64,000 nt of DNA from an uncultured Bacteroidales bacterium. Lineage in GTDB: Bacteria > Bacteroidota > Bacteroidia > Bacteroidales > Muribaculaceae. The translations under genes were made by a program, and so were the position numbers. The stretch's first letter is position 1, and each line of letters starts with the position of its first letter. A model generated the notes under the pieces. The model ran no database searches, was not told the DNA's origin, and worked only from the letters and a program-made list of their open reading frames with translations. The stretch spans positions 23,693 through 87,692 of the forward strand of contig CACYVC010000015.1 in NCBI GenBank assembly GCA_902777835.1, in the 5' to 3' direction. Of the stretch, positions 16,594 through 22,428 are shown piece by piece.

Positions 16594-17727
16594 ATGAAGG
16601 CATTTACTAAAATTTTGATGATCATGTTTGCAATGATTATGTGCAGTTGCTCTGATAGCGACAACGAAGCTATGGCTCAAAACACTTTACCTCAAAAGAT
16701 GTATATAACCATCGACGGTGTGTCGCAATCTGTGACACTCTATGACAACGCAGCAACAAGAGAACTGGTGAATAAGTTACAAGACGGAAGTGTGACAGTG
16801 ACACTCAACTCCAGCGGCGGCTTTGAGATATGGGGAGCATTAGGCTTCTCTTTGCCCACAAGCAACGAGCAGATTACCGCACAACCAGGCGATGTGATTC
16901 TTTATAACGGCAGCAACATCTGCATCATGTATGGTTCCAACTCATGGAGCTACACCCGATTGGGGCACATCGATGGACTCTCCGAAAGCGAGCTGCGCAC
17001 GTTCCTCAAAGCTGGTGAGAGCAATATTAGCGTAACTTTATCGCTTCGTCCCTCCTATCCTCAACCTAGCAGCAAAACTCTCTTGGTTTATTTCAGCTAC
17101 ACCAATCACTGCCATGAAATTGCTCAATCCCTGGCCTCTCAGATTGACGCCGACATGCTGCGCATTTATCCTGCCGACAAAAATCAGCAATATGAGGCCA
17201 ATGGCTACGCAATAGGCATGCAATTACTGGAAGCTATCAATGCCAACCCTAACAGTGCCGACAGTTATCCTGATATTGATCCAGTTGCGGTTCCTCTTGA
17301 CGAATATGACACATTCATTATTGTCACACCACTATGGTGGAGCAAAATGGCAGCTATTCTTCAGACCTATCTGTTTCACCACGGAGCAGAGATGGCTGGC
17401 AAGAACGTAGGACTTATTGTGTCGAGCCACAGCAGCGGCATTAGCGGTGTAGTGGCTGATGCCGAGCGCCTCATTCCAAATGCTGAGTGGATGGGTGAAG
17501 CATTGTGGATTAACAATGCTAACCATAGCAACCGAGCAGCATTGATAGAAAATTGGCTCACAGACATCAACTATTCAGCCATATCAACCATCATTGAAGA
17601 TATCAATACTGATTCTCACGCTGGTCCATCAGGTATTTTCAATCTTAGCGGACAGCGATTGACAAAAGCACCCGAAAGTGGTATATATATTGAAAATGGG
17701 ATTAAAAAAATAGCTACAAAAAGATAA
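16594..17727 (+). CDS. Exported cyclophilin-like + flavodoxin lipoprotein with a T9SS-like tail
   Basis: The 377-residue protein has a lipoprotein-type signal (MKAFTKILMIMFAMIMCSC, lipid Cys probably 19). Residues 35-153 form a cyclophilin-like beta domain of the kind fused to flavodoxins (GGFEIWGALGF). Residues 161-330 form a flavodoxin domain: the phosphate-loop-like YFSYTNHCHEIA, then VTPLWWSKMA and SSHSSGISG, which would surround FMN. Residues about 345-377 (FNLSGQRL, SGIYIENGIKK) look like a short T9SS-type sorting tail. A flavodoxin with both an export signal and a surface-type tail is unusual, as flavodoxins are normally cytosolic electron carriers. It is the first gene of a tight cluster; the next gene starts 3 bases after its stop. 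Confidence 0.8.
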   Translation: MKAFTKILMIMFAMIMCSCSDSDNEAMAQNTLPQKMYITIDGVSQSVTLYDNAATRELVNKLQDGSVTVTLNSSGGFEIWGALGFSLPTSNEQITAQPGDVILYNGSNICIMYGSNSWSYTRLGHIDGLSESELRTFLKAGESNISVTLSLRPSYPQPSSKTLLVYFSYTNHCHEIAQSLASQIDADMLRIYPADKNQQYEANGYAIGMQLLEAINANPNSADSYPDIDPVAVPLDEYDTFIIVTPLWWSKMAAILQTYLFHHGAEMAGKNVGLIVSSHSSGISGVVADAERLIPNAEWMGEALWINNANHSNRAALIENWLTDINYSAISTIIEDINTDSHAGPSGIFNLSGQRLTKAPESGIYIENGIKKIATKR

Positions 17728-17730
17728 GCA

Positions 17731-18819
17731 ATGAGATACTTTATTTTATCATTGGCAGTCATGGGATTGACTCTCATTTCATGCAGCAAAAACCAACAAA
17801 AAGAAGATACAATGAATACAACGTTAGAACTCACACAAGAATGGGACAAGACTTTCCCCAAGAGCGACAAAGTCGAGCACAAAAAGGTGACATTCAAGAA
17901 TCGTTACGGCATTGAACTTGCCGCCGATATGTATACACCTAAAGATGTCAAAGGCAAACTCCCCGCAATCGCCGTAAGCGGACCTTTCGGTGCCGTGAAG
18001 GAGCAAAGCAGTGGTCTTTACGCCCAGCACATGGCCGAGCGTGGCTTTGTCACAATTGCTTTCGACCCCTCGTTCACCGGCGAGAGTGGCGGTGAACCTC
18101 GACGCATGGCATCGCCCGATATCAATACAGAAGATTTCCTTGCTGCAGTTGACTTCCTAAGTGTGCAAGACAATGTTGACCCAGAGCGCATCGGCATCAT
18201 TGGCATTTGCGGCTTTGGTGGCATGGCAATCAATGCTGCCGCCCTCGACCCACGCATCAAGGCAACAGTGGCATCAACGATGTATGACATGAGCAAAGTT
18301 AATGTGGAGGGTTACTTCAAGAGTGAAGACACCAAAGAGCAGCGCATGGCAAAGCGCAAGGCCATAGCTGCGCAACGCACCGAGGACTTTAAGAGCGGCA
18401 GCTATAAGCGTGCTGGCGGTGTCGTTGACCCACTGCCCGAAGACGCGCCATTCTTTGTTAAAGACTATTACGACTACTACAAGACCAAGCGCGGCTACCA
18501 CAAGCGCAGCGGTAACAGCACCGACGGTTGGAACGTGATTGGATGCCAGTCGTTCATGAATCAACCACTGCTTGCCTGGGCCCACGAGATAGAGACTCCA
18601 GTGCTACTCATTCACGGAGAGAAAGCACATTCACGCTATTTCTCAGAGTATGCCTTCGAGAAGATGACTGGTGTTCACGTTGAGGGCGAGAGCAAAACAA
18701 TGGGCAACAAGGAGTTGATGATTATCCCAGGAGCTGTCCACACCGATCTTTACGACGATGTCAACGATCGCATCCCTTACGATAAAATGGAAGACTTCTT
18801 TAAACAAAACCTCAAATAA
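17731..18819 (+). CDS. Alpha/beta-hydrolase-fold lipoprotein (YcjY/COG1073-like) with a replaced nucleophile
   Basis: The 362-residue protein has a lipoprotein signal (MRYFILSLAVMGLTLISC, Cys18). The body is an alpha/beta hydrolase: strand LPAIAVSGPFGAVKEQ, then FVTIAFDPSFTGESGG, then the nucleophile elbow IGIICGFGG-type region (residues 157-164, GICGFGG), and a late VLLIHGEKAHSRYFSE with an Asp/His region ending GAVHTDLYDD. Where the classical family motif has Ser (C-x-S-x-G) this protein has Phe162, with Cys160 nearby. It is therefore either a Cys-based or inactive member; many relatives also carry Trp or Phe here. A methionine at residue 28 could be an alternative cytosolic start. It is flanked by flavodoxin and iron-sulfur flavoprotein genes. 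Confidence 0.85.
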   Translation: MRYFILSLAVMGLTLISCSKNQQKEDTMNTTLELTQEWDKTFPKSDKVEHKKVTFKNRYGIELAADMYTPKDVKGKLPAIAVSGPFGAVKEQSSGLYAQHMAERGFVTIAFDPSFTGESGGEPRRMASPDINTEDFLAAVDFLSVQDNVDPERIGIIGICGFGGMAINAAALDPRIKATVASTMYDMSKVNVEGYFKSEDTKEQRMAKRKAIAAQRTEDFKSGSYKRAGGVVDPLPEDAPFFVKDYYDYYKTKRGYHKRSGNSTDGWNVIGCQSFMNQPLLAWAHEIETPVLLIHGEKAHSRYFSEYAFEKMTGVHVEGESKTMGNKELMIIPGAVHTDLYDDVNDRIPYDKMEDFFKQNLK

Positions 18820-18820
18820 A

Positions 18821-19363
18821 ATGAAGAAAGTTGTTGTAATTTCTACCAGCCTGCGTCCAGGTTCAAACAGCCACATGATGGCTGAGCAATTTGCCGAGGG
18901 CGCAAAAGCAGCAGGCCACGAAGTGGAACTTATCTCACTGAGAGGAAAAGAAATCAAGTTCTGCATAGGCTGCTTGTCATGCCAGAATACTGGCGCATGC
19001 GTGTTTAAAGACGATGTTCCCGCAATTATGGATAGTGTGCTCAATGCCGATGTAGTGTGCTGGGCAACACCGATTTATTACTACGAGATGAGCGGACAGA
19101 TGAAAACCCTTATCGACCGCATGAATGCCATGTATCCTAAGGATTACCACTTCCGCGACATTTATCTGCTCACCACCGCAGCCGAGGACGAGCCACACGT
19201 TCCTGAGCGCGCTGAAAGTGGCCTGCAAGGTTGGATTGATTGCTATGAGAAATCGGTGCTTAAAGCTCATCTGTTCTGCGGTGGCGTGGGCGCCCCACGC
19301 GATATCAATGGCAACAACAAGCTGCAAGAGGCTTACGAATTGGGAAAGAGCATATCACTTTAA
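18821..19363 (+). CDS. Iron-sulfur flavoprotein / NADPH-dependent FMN reductase family
   Basis: The start MKKVVVISTS was chosen because it begins the flavodoxin-like fold one base after the hydrolase stop; the longer frame upstream overlaps the hydrolase. The 180-residue protein has the FMN-binding loop SLRPGSNSHMM (10-20), a compact cysteine motif (Cys48, Cys51, Cys54, Cys60; C-x2-C-x2-C-x5-C) as in Isf iron-sulfur flavoproteins, and ATPIYYYEMSGQMKTLIDR. It probably binds FMN and a [4Fe-4S] cluster and moves electrons in the cytosol. Its place after an exported flavodoxin and before an AraC regulator suggests a shared stress or reductive role. Confidence 0.87.
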   Translation: MKKVVVISTSLRPGSNSHMMAEQFAEGAKAAGHEVELISLRGKEIKFCIGCLSCQNTGACVFKDDVPAIMDSVLNADVVCWATPIYYYEMSGQMKTLIDRMNAMYPKDYHFRDIYLLTTAAEDEPHVPERAESGLQGWIDCYEKSVLKAHLFCGGVGAPRDINGNNKLQEAYELGKSISL

Positions 19364-19407: not shown

Positions 19408-20322
19408 ATGATTTACAAGTTAGACAATATCGACGACTATAACCATGCCTTGGGCATTGAGACTGTGCATCCGCTGGTGACAGTGTGCAATCTCAAGGAT
19501 GTGCCAAACCGTGAACTCATCGACAACGAAGTCACGTGGCACTATGGCGTGTACGCATTGTTTCTGAAGAATACGCGGAGTTGCCTTCTCTCCTACGGTC
19601 ATAAGGAATATGACTACAGCGACGGCACAGTCACAAGCTTCGCACCAATGCAGACAGTGACCTCCACGCCAATCCCTGGTATGGACCACGACGTGGTGGC
19701 ACTGTTGTTTCACCCCGACCTGATTCGTGGCACTTCGCTCGCAAAAGGCATCGCCGATTACCGTTTTCTACAGTATTCGTCAAACGAGGCCCTGCACATG
19801 TCGGAACGTGAGCGCAGCATCTATCTCGACTGCATCGAAAAAATCAAGGAGGAAATCAACCATCCGCTCGACAAATTCAGCCGCAAGCTCATCTGCCGCA
19901 ACATTGAGTTGCTGCTGGACTACTGCACGCGCTTCTATGACCGCCAGTTCATTACGCGCGAATTGGAAAACAGCAGCGTGATAGCGACATTTGAGCAGGC
20001 TCTCAACGAATACTTCCACAACCGTGAGAAGATGTTCATGAACGGACTGCCGTCGGTGAAGGTGTTTGCTGACAAGTGCTGCCTGTCGCCAAACTATTTT
20101 GGCGATCTGGTGAAAAAAGAGACTGGAAAAACGCCAGTGGAGTTCATTCAACAGAAGGTTATTGACATAGCCAAAGAAGACTTACACTCGACCGACGACA
20201 CCATCACCGAGGTGGCCTACCGCCTGGGGTTCCAGAGCAGCCAGCACTTCAACCGCTACTTTAAGCGCTGCACCGGCATGACTCCAACAGAATACCGCAA
20301 GCACAGCCGCCAGACGGCTTAA
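19408..20322 (+). CDS. AraC family transcriptional regulator
   Basis: The 304-residue protein has an N-terminal cupin-like sensor region and a C-terminal pair of helix-turn-helix motifs (about 205-300), with the family signature VAYRLGFQSSQHFNRYFKRCTGMTPTEYR split across its last 50 residues. It probably controls the preceding redox genes: it lies 44 bases after them on the same strand. The inducer is unknown, but AraC regulators next to aldehyde- or quinone-related oxidoreductases often sense electrophiles. Confidence 0.95.
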   Translation: MIYKLDNIDDYNHALGIETVHPLVTVCNLKDVPNRELIDNEVTWHYGVYALFLKNTRSCLLSYGHKEYDYSDGTVTSFAPMQTVTSTPIPGMDHDVVALLFHPDLIRGTSLAKGIADYRFLQYSSNEALHMSERERSIYLDCIEKIKEEINHPLDKFSRKLICRNIELLLDYCTRFYDRQFITRELENSSVIATFEQALNEYFHNREKMFMNGLPSVKVFADKCCLSPNYFGDLVKKETGKTPVEFIQQKVIDIAKEDLHSTDDTITEVAYRLGFQSSQHFNRYFKRCTGMTPTEYRKHSRQTA

Positions 20323-20431
20323 TATCCATTAACACATTGATAACTGGAAGATTTACAAACATTTTTAACCCTAAAAACAAATTGTAACCAAAACGTAACA
20401 GTACTTTTATTATCTATCTACATTTTATCTG

Positions 20432-20439
20432 TACCTTTG
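20432..20439 (+). promoter_or_regulatory. Promoter -7 box for the Na/Pi-winged-helix gene
   Basis: TACCTTTG matches the Bacteroidetes element, 30 bases before the ATG at 20470. Confidence 0.65.
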
Positions 20440-20469: not shown

Positions 20470-22428
20470 ATGACTATTGGCATAATATTCCGTCTTCTCG
20501 GATCGTTGGCGTTGCTCATTTATGGAATGAAGACAATGAGCGAGGCGCTTCAAAAGATGGCAGGTTCAAGTTTACGTCACATTCTTGGACGGATGACATC
20601 CAACCGCTTCAGTGGGATGCTGACAGGCACTTTTGTGACTTGTGCAGTGCAGTCATCTTCAGCCACAACAGTGATGACGGTTTCTTTTGTTTCGGCCGGT
20701 CTATTGACATTGGCACAAGCGATATCGGTCATAATGGGCGCCAACATTGGCACGACCCTCACGGCATGGATTATGTCACTGGGCTACAATGTAGACTTGA
20801 CTAGTGTGGTCTTTCCTGCATTTCTCATCGGTATGGTTCTCATTTACAAGAAACGGCACCGATATGTGGGAGATTTCCTATTTGGAATTGCATTTCTGTT
20901 TTGGTCATTAGTGATGTTAAGCAGTGTGGGCAAGGACTTAGATCTCGAACACAATGCTAAAGTTGTGGCATTCTTTGCCTCATTCGACACCAACAGTTAT
21001 CTCACTATCCTCGCTTTTCTTGGAATTGGCACTATTATCACCTGTATTGTGCAGTCGTCGGCTGCAGTTATGGCTATTACCATCCTGCTCTGCTCAACAG
21101 GAGTGGTCCCCATTTACATGGGAATTGCTCTAGTGATGGGTGAAAACATTGGCACCACCGCCACTGCCAATCTTGCAGCACTTAAAGCAGGTGTGAGGGC
21201 ACGACAGGCAGCATTTGCACACCTGCTTTTCAATGTGTTTGGTGTGATTTGGGTGCTATGCGTGTTTTACCCATTTGTTGATATGGTATGCAAGATGGCA
21301 GGCTATAACCCTTCTCTTTCGGGTCAAAATGAAAGTCTCCCAATCGTATTAGCACTATTCCACACATGTTTCAATGTGATAAATACCGCGATTCTCATCA
21401 GTTTCATACCACAAATGGAGCAAATTGTAAGGTGGGTCATCAAAGATAAGCCAAAGGTCAAAACAGTTAAACGCCTTCAGTATATTGACAACGGACTGAT
21501 GGCAACCCCAGAGATTTCAATACTTCAGGCGCAAAAAGAGATTGTGCTCTTTGCCGAACGCTTGCAGCGCATGTTTGGCATGGTGTGCGTCCTACTTGAC
21601 GAGAAAGAGAAGAAAGAATTTGAACGTCAATACGAACGCATTGTCAAGTATGAAGACATTGCCGACAATATGGAATTCGAAATTGCTTCTTACCTGAAAG
21701 AAGTTAGCAACCAACACTTGTCGGACGACTCTAAAAGTAAAATTCGTGGCATGCTTCGCCAAATCAGCGAATTAGAGTCTATAGGTGATGCTTGTTATAC
21801 ACTAGCCCGCGCCATCCAGCACAAGCACAATGGACGTGAGGACTTCACCGCCCAACAATATAACAATCTCCATGAAATGCTGCGCTTGGTGAACGAGGCA
21901 TTGACTCAGATGATGGTCGTCATCAGTGGACGACGCGAGGATTTAACCATTGACATCTCGCAAGAGATAGAGAATGACATCAATGTGCTTAGAGACAAAC
22001 TAAGGGCAGAAAGCTTAAACGACGTCAACGAACACAAGTATTCTTACGCCCTCGGTTCTTACTATGACGACATCATAACAAGATGTGAGGAACTTGGCGA
22101 CTATGTGATGAACGTTATAGAGGCGCGACTTGGAAAGCACTTCCTCACATTCCGTGGCCTGCGAGTGAGTCTTGACCACAAATCTATCACCATCGACGGC
22201 ATTCCAACAAGTCTCACTCGAACCGAATTCAACTTACTATGCGAACTCCTATCTAATAGTGGTCAGGTATTATCACGACAAGAGCTCATGAACAACATTT
22301 GGGATGGTGTTATCGTCACCGAGCGCACAGTGGATGTCAATATAACTCGACTGCGAAAGAAGCTAGGCCCATATGCCCAAAACATCGTCAGCCGTCAAGG
22401 CTTTGGCTATGTTTTTGAAAAGAATTGA
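20470..22428 (+). CDS. Na/Pi cotransporter + PhoU-like domain + PhoB-type winged-helix fusion
   Basis: A single intact 652-residue frame carries three parts. Residues 1-325 are a Na/Pi cotransporter with its duplicated core: QSSSAT (61-66) with GANIGTT (90-96), and QSSAA (195-199) with GENIGTT (224-230). Residues about 350-555 are a helical PhoU-like region (repeated ESIGD, EELGDYV). Residues about 556-652 are an OmpR/PhoB-type winged helix: a beta sheet start (FRGLRVSLD), TRTEFNLLCELLSNSGQVLSR, the recognition helix RTVDVNITRLRKKLG and the final wing GFGYVFE. Known NptA/YjbB proteins end after the PhoU domain. The DNA-binding end implies a membrane-tethered phosphate-responsive regulator. 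No receiver or kinase is adjacent. The gene has its own promoter and follows an AraC regulator. Confidence 0.93.
   Translation: MTIGIIFRLLGSLALLIYGMKTMSEALQKMAGSSLRHILGRMTSNRFSGMLTGTFVTCAVQSSSATTVMTVSFVSAGLLTLAQAISVIMGANIGTTLTAWIMSLGYNVDLTSVVFPAFLIGMVLIYKKRHRYVGDFLFGIAFLFWSLVMLSSVGKDLDLEHNAKVVAFFASFDTNSYLTILAFLGIGTIITCIVQSSAAVMAITILLCSTGVVPIYMGIALVMGENIGTTATANLAALKAGVRARQAAFAHLLFNVFGVIWVLCVFYPFVDMVCKMAGYNPSLSGQNESLPIVLALFHTCFNVINTAILISFIPQMEQIVRWVIKDKPKVKTVKRLQYIDNGLMATPEISILQAQKEIVLFAERLQRMFGMVCVLLDEKEKKEFERQYERIVKYEDIADNMEFEIASYLKEVSNQHLSDDSKSKIRGMLRQISELESIGDACYTLARAIQHKHNGREDFTAQQYNNLHEMLRLVNEALTQMMVVISGRREDLTIDISQEIENDINVLRDKLRAESLNDVNEHKYSYALGSYYDDIITRCEELGDYVMNVIEARLGKHFLTFRGLRVSLDHKSITIDGIPTSLTRTEFNLLCELLSNSGQVLSRQELMNNIWDGVIVTERTVDVNITRLRKKLGPYAQNIVSRQGFGYVFEKN

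Follow-up and report, generated by a model that had tools for sequence, protein, structure and literature searches.

The PhoU domain of NptA, a Na/Pi cotransporter of S. aureus, modulates PhoPR (PMC13170248), and how transporter and PhoU signal to the PhoR/PhoB pair has been debated for a long time without an answer. In Bacteroidota this pair is the PhoB–PhoR system (NF053854/NF053855), described in B. fragilis as PhoRB (PMC3547664). Regulators of the CadC/ToxR type (CadC: PMC5430869) combine a sensor and an OmpR-type DNA-binding part in one membrane-tethered protein. CadC and ToxR have an N-terminal winged helix, one membrane helix and a periplasmic sensor. CbrA and CrbS are transporter–histidine kinase fusions whose output still reaches a separate response regulator through a phosphorelay.

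The window analysed here, a stretch of 64,000 nucleotides from an uncultured Bacteroidales bacterium, encodes a protein that resembles each of these systems in part and matches none of them. Its cotransporter core and C-terminal PhoU part are those of an NptA-type protein; however, NptA works on a separate two-component system, whereas the fusion carries its DNA-binding domain in the same chain, in most genomes without a detected kinase. By sequence and fold the winged helix belongs to the Bacteroidota PhoB family but, unlike in PhoB–PhoR, there is no receiver domain; a phosphorylation site is therefore absent, and a kinase should in principle be unnecessary. As in CadC/ToxR, an OmpR-type winged helix is tethered to the membrane in the same protein as the putative sensor, but it is C-terminal and the remainder is a transporter with a PhoU region, so that membership of that group is not met. 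A transporter-like module is fused to a signalling module, as in CbrA/CrbS, but without a phosphorelay. Since membership of neither PhoB nor CadC/ToxR is met, the fusion would work like a membrane one-component regulator outside those families. No description of a transporter–PhoU–winged helix fusion was found in the open-access literature searched (subscription journals and preprints were outside its scope); the words 'fusion', 'fused' and 'DNA-binding' are absent from the main text of PMC13170248, which surveyed 926 genomes, and PMC12918730 proved unrelated. The features of the locus are as follows.

20384..20399, + strand: Pho-box-like direct repeat GTAAC-N6-GTAAC, 11-bp period, in the fusion promoter and kept in relatives
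20432..20439, + strand: -7 element TAnnTTTG (TACCTTTG), 48 bp from the repeat start, a spacing kept in relatives
20470..22428, + strand: fusion gene, 652 aa in a single intact frame, ATG at 20470 and stop at 22426-22428
20470..21444, + strand: Na/Pi cotransporter core, residues 1-325 (Pfam, TIGR00704, alignment and AlphaFold model)
21508..22131, + strand: PhoU-like helical region, residues 347-554 (Pfam PhoU at 1.1e-7, and Foldseek)
22129..22143, + strand: joint, residues 554-558 (AlphaFold model and alignment)
22138..22425, + strand: OmpR/PhoB-type winged helix, Bacteroidetes-PhoB-like, residues 557-652 (profiles, fold, and dN/dS well below 1)
22321..22383, + strand: third helix of the model, with the ERTVDVNITRLRKKLG segment, residues 618-638

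All three domains score above the curated Pfam cut-offs: Na_Pi_cotrans (PF02690) in two stretches (1.7e-56), PhoU (PF01895) at residues 362-448 (1.1e-7, 32.6 bits against a cut-off of 23.5) and Trans_reg_C (PF00486) at residues 579-649 (1.4e-19). The protein also passes TIGR00704 (225.4 bits, cut-off 210.1), with QSS at 61-63 and 195-197 and GxNxGTT at 90-96 and 224-230; both pairs of motifs are invariant in an alignment of 50 sequences, the exceptions being I93 and I227 (90% or more). The repeats and motifs thus place it in the Na/Pi cotransporter family, and sodium-driven phosphate uptake is inferred from that membership. For the isolated tail, the top NCBIfam match is the Bacteroidetes PhoB family NF053854 (110 bits; the runner-up family reaches 61). 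When the whole protein is searched, NF053854 aligns over its C-terminal part only (profile positions 130-225), at 105.8 bits against a cut-off of 270; with this score, and with no receiver domain bearing a phospho-accepting aspartate in the protein, membership of the PhoB response regulators is not met. An AlphaFold model built on the 50-sequence alignment (mean pLDDT 80.6, pTM 0.47) predicts four strands, three helices and a C-terminal hairpin at residues 558-649, the topology of a winged helix. The top PDB matches of the tail in Foldseek are the PhoB effector domain alone and on pho-box DNA (1gxq/1gxp; TM 0.84-0.89 by target length), and the middle part of the model matches PhoU structures (2i0m, TM 0.85 by target length). 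The tail therefore meets the test for an OmpR/PhoB winged helix, namely Trans_reg_C above its cut-off, the winged helix-turn-helix topology and a conserved third helix, while its binding to DNA is inferred.

These results bear out a first-pass annotation made from the sequence alone, which had proposed a Na/Pi core with both QSS and GxNxGTT repeats intact, a PhoU-like region and an OmpR/PhoB-type winged helix at residues about 556-652, all in one intact frame at 20470-22428. Each element held, the coordinates exactly so. A domain search, a survey of how many genomes carry the domain order and a structure prediction of the tail had been suggested as checks; lack of HMM support for the winged helix, which would have refuted the proposal, is contradicted by the Trans_reg_C match. 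Directly 5' of the fusion gene lies an AraC-type regulator (19408-20322 of the window), probably a separate unit, preceded at 16594-19363 by flavodoxin-like, dienelactone-hydrolase-like and NADPH-dependent-reductase-like genes, all named from their translations.

A scan of genome contigs gave 173 relatives, of which the best 80 were kept, and 54 of these match the window protein from residue 1 or 17 to about residue 650. All 54 full-length loci, each in another public record, run uninterrupted to the stop (635-673 aa). The record titles are mainly those of ruminant-gut MAGs of Prevotella, Prevotellaceae or Bacteroidales, and four are of strains: Xylanibacter ruminicola D31d, Prevotella aff. 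ruminicola Tc2-24, Prevotella sp. P6B1 and Prevotellaceae HUN156. A second finding that would have refuted the first-pass annotation, an open reading frame break near 22130 in related genomes, thus fails for the fusion family, but other homologues do end there. The distribution is narrow: a match reaching the protein end was found in 7/101 genomes of the genus sample, in 7/397 of the family sample (the identical seven) and in 2/393 of the order sample, the second from another family. The other genus matches returned stop at residue 580 or before and the window genome itself has a second Na/Pi-PhoU paralogue of 569 aa without a winged helix (G000:C40:12941-14635; L155:4927-6636), which fits the earlier claim that the usual relatives carry nothing beyond PhoU.

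The joint is also conserved. In the AlphaFold model the last PhoU helix ends at residue 554 and the first winged-helix strand begins at 558, and the position of the joint is fixed, since residues 546-591 are without an indel in all 58 aligned rows. These rows represent 55 distinct fusion genes, the three duplicate loci being present also in the trees and in the spacing table. R627, R629, K630 and K631 of the third helix are identical in 58/58 rows. The tail is under purifying selection: over 88 row pairs with dS of 0.05-1 (duplicate loci included) its dN/dS is mostly about 0.07-0.2, a weaker constraint than in the transporter core. For the window gene against four near relatives the values are 0.18-0.27 in the tail and 0.02-0.04 in the transporter part, and for one pair (L069-L078) the tail value rises to 0.67.

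Upstream of the fusion gene, the repeat reads GTAAC-CAAAAC-GTAAC in the window and is followed by TAnnTTTG, which we take to be the Bacteroidota -7 consensus. The repeat is matched at nine or more of its ten positions in 53/55 fusion promoters, as against 7/1100 mononucleotide shuffles; of the remaining two promoters, one scores 8 and the other belongs to a locus with only 69 bp of upstream sequence. With duplicates removed, it starts 48-50 bp before TAnnTTTG in 51/55. Among other genes in the loci 4/447 reach 9 or more, three of them divergent neighbours of a boxed transporter gene, and none of these four has the -7 element at the 48-50 bp spacing. An earlier control of other genes' upstream regions, in which some transporter starts were included, had given 20/477 at 9 or more.

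The same repeat is found outside the fusion family. It reaches 9 or more in 35/40 distinct upstream regions of unfused relatives (a phoB neighbour is not known for all), and, in fusion genomes that also have a phoB-phoR locus, it precedes a separate Na/Pi-PhoU gene adjoining phoR (G432 and G446), the phoB-phoR operon (G079) and an unfused transporter-phoB-phoR operon (G069). In the paralogue of the window genome and in two Bacteroides homologues its score is just 7 of 10. As the repeat is present before both phoB-phoR loci and unfused transporters, we suggest GTAAC-N6-GTAAC as the Pho box of this group. For the same reason, its occurrence at PhoB-bearing operons, the presence of the repeat alone is no proof that it is read by the fused tail.

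A wider regulon was not evident. Searching 12 fusion genomes for a strict form of the repeat (up to one mismatch) gave 23 matches, seven exact and 16 with one mismatch. All seven exact matches lie at fusion promoters, as do four of the 16 others, which come from the window genome and from three near relatives. For G458, one of the 12, the strict search gave nothing. The 12 matches elsewhere are at background level, a reversed control giving 15: five lie inside long frames (L198, L202, L206, L208 and L212) and seven in repeat-like stretches, and no evident phosphate gene, judged from translations, stands behind any of them. With a loose box (2 mismatches) there was no enrichment in the window genome (126 against 416 in the reversed control), where the sole other exact match sits in a coding frame. 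No further boxed promoter was found in 77 loci under a narrow filter, and on the pst-bearing contig of G418 no site scored 9 or higher. It is possible that a strict box built from fusion promoters overlooks a wider regulon.

Apart from the fusion, RprY is the single Trans_reg_C protein of the window genome, which is 90% complete. That this protein might be a PhoB in disguise was excluded, since it scores above the cut-off of its own family (NF051850, 452 bits), and its third helix differs from that of the fusion tail. With a PhoB query, a PhoB-level regulator (191 bits or more) was found in 7/50 fusion genomes; in the remainder of the 50 there was no full regulator above 128 bits, and G426 gave a receiver-length piece only. 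This search covered 50 of the 54 loci in one set, L035, L036, L037 and L084 being the near relatives G063, G076, G097 and G079; the identities of G449 with G069 and of G451 with G083 are inferred from identical coordinates and scores. Of five near genomes one, G079, is PhoB-positive, bringing the total to 8/55, so that a PhoB-level regulator was undetected in 47/55 fusion genomes, including the window genome and the four strain genomes. A PhoR-level kinase was found in 9/55, the eight PhoB-positive genomes plus G446, and was undetected with one PhoR-like query in 46/55, again including the four strain genomes; the 90% complete window genome gave no match to that query at E≤1e-35. The PhoB and PhoR tests each rest on one query, and because most records are MAGs, single gene absences are weak evidence. 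Together with the missing receiver, these counts support the earlier claim that no phosphorelay is involved.

The fusion is nevertheless not always a replacement for PhoB, since eight of the 55 genomes keep it. PhoB is also missing in 31/77 non-fusion genomes of the genus (counted by hand from the table); its loss is thus common without the fusion in this sample, which weakens any tight link between the two. PstC exceeds its cut-off in one of 35 genomes (20 fusion, 15 non-fusion). The Pst importer therefore seems rare in the group, and Na/Pi transporters are probably a main entry for phosphate. In G446 (L229, G446:C70:1-6000) a phoR frame of 439-440 aa adjoins a phoB that is broken into two frames, possibly a decay in progress and possibly a sequencing frameshift.

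Unfused relatives indicate where the fusion may have come from. Twelve unfused loci were selected as those in which the match already extended into a separate downstream winged helix; in these the transporter-PhoU gene ends about at the joint (typically ...EARFGK stop) and a response regulator is the next gene in 12/12. A kinase-like ORF of 304-350 aa follows the regulator in 11/12, the record of L098 being too short; except in L099, these kinases were named from translations. Across 41 unfused rows (flank lengths unequal, some duplicates) a PhoB-level regulator lies within the fetched locus in 27. The two regulators that were scored are both PhoB above the cut-off (297 and 292 bits against 270). 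The one scored kinase matches PhoR (NF053855) over profile positions 353-583 of 583 with 339 bits (whole-protein cut-off 500), and since this covers only the catalytic half of PhoR, it seems to be without a sensor part. By reading, the kinase at L099:8361-9272 and its look-alikes in L087-L111 seem to consist of two membrane helices and a catalytic part, with a sensor domain apparently lacking. Such a layout points to the transporter-PhoU protein as the sensor.

The gene order of these operons, minus the receiver, is that of the fusion, which suggests an origin from a transporter-phoU/phoB/phoR operon. Most likely the fusion arose once, when the transporter-PhoU gene came to read in frame into the DNA-binding half of phoB and the receiver domain disappeared; the kinase, no longer needed, would afterwards have been lost in most cases. 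In the transporter tree, operon-type unfused rows adjoin fused rows, but the best tree nests the unfused operon type among them, and taken at face value this would turn the direction around. The transporter alignment does not reject a single fused clade (p-AU 0.355), and in the winged-helix tree, from a short alignment, such a clade has the higher likelihood (p-AU 0.79). These are quick trees, and one of their outgroup rows (L186) is a protein other than RprY on a very long branch. The inferred direction from unfused to fused is likely but, given the nesting in the best transporter tree, unproven, and the trees do not settle it.

We consider it likely that the fusion is a phosphate transporter that regulates itself and serves as a membrane-tethered one-component Pho regulator, with the reservation that DNA binding and phosphate control are inferred. 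The fusion, its conservation under selection, its operon relatives, the scarcity of PhoB and PhoR and the conserved repeat at fixed spacing are shown; that the tail binds DNA, that it activates and does not repress, that phosphate is the signal and that a conformational switch operates are inferences, there being no binding, expression or transport data. Sensing by the transporter-PhoU part and its control of winged-helix binding are inferred from the anatomy, the conservation, the operons and the repeat, along with the work on S. aureus NptA. The transporter and PhoU region would sense phosphate occupancy or flux. With plentiful phosphate, the rigidly attached winged helices would be kept from pairing on DNA; when phosphate is scarce they would be freed to bind the 11-bp direct repeat before their own promoter, where they would recruit RNA polymerase and so raise production of the transporter. 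Direct mechanical coupling is suggested by the near absence of a linker between the PhoU helix and the winged helix, and activation by the location of the repeat upstream of the core promoter. The first-pass annotation had proposed that the transporter is a membrane-tethered transcription factor. This is supported, subject to the same inferences, and is narrowed to an auto-regulator because the conserved direct repeat precedes the fusion gene. A bolder reading goes further: one polypeptide would transport and sense phosphate and bind the Pho box of its own promoter from the membrane, and transporter, PhoU, PhoR and PhoB would have been compacted by receiver excision, leaving the sole Pho regulator in many Prevotella-type rumen bacteria. 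Taking both halves of this reading together, we lean towards it, by a small margin.

Several other readings of the same observations can be weighed against this. The repeat might be read by a separate PhoB or by RprY, the tail being a relic or a protein–protein contact domain that modulates transport only. In favour of this are the presence of the repeat before unfused transporter-phoB operons and before separate Na/Pi transporters beside phoB-phoR, and of PhoB in 8/55 fusion genomes. It is unlikely, however, as the repeat is kept in 53/55 fusion promoters although 47/55 genomes are without a PhoB-level regulator; a relic tail does not agree with purifying selection and a strongly conserved third helix, and RprY, a member of another family (NF051850), has a different helix there. 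The tail might also be a repressor under plentiful phosphate or a constitutive factor, a variant that does not exclude the other steps. The sequence does not fix the sign of regulation, but the repeat, whose start lies 48-50 bp ahead of the -7 element, is upstream of the core promoter rather than on it, and we doubt this variant. A site upstream of the core promoter is usual for activators, and PhoB-type domains mostly activate.

Some membrane-bound transcription factors act after proteolytic release. Release of the winged helix from the membrane, likewise not exclusive of the other steps, is excluded by no result, but we regard it as very unlikely: there is almost no linker (554 to 558) and no indel at the joint in 58/58 rows, which favours mechanical coupling over a cleavable linker. 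That the gene is an assembly or frameshift artefact joining two genes is all but excluded and was rejected, since 54/54 full-length loci from other records, strain genomes included, share the uninterrupted frame and the identical joint, and no evidence in support of an artefact was found.

Under the auto-regulator reading, a single protein with a single promoter could suffice for studying how transport is coupled to transcription, because the intermediates are gone and a single chain with almost no linker remains. The unfused operons provide a matched control, and the fusion is present in cultured strains. If the reading is true, the family would represent the reduction of a two-component system to a single component, and genomes of mixed type (fusion with PhoB, fusion with broken PhoB) still exist.

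Some variation in promoter arrangement was also observed. At L225:10668-10690 and L229:4040-4062, Na/Pi-PhoU genes convergent with phoR are preceded by four GTAAC-like half-sites in 11-bp register, the 5'-most pair of each array lying 48 bp before the -7 element. In the unfused loci L092, L093, L096 and L104 a second copy of the repeat occurs further upstream, inverted and facing the divergent neighbour. In the close relatives L065 and L072 the repeat and -7 element are 263-274 bp from the start codon, elsewhere about 80, and a leader may have been inserted before the fusion gene in these two.
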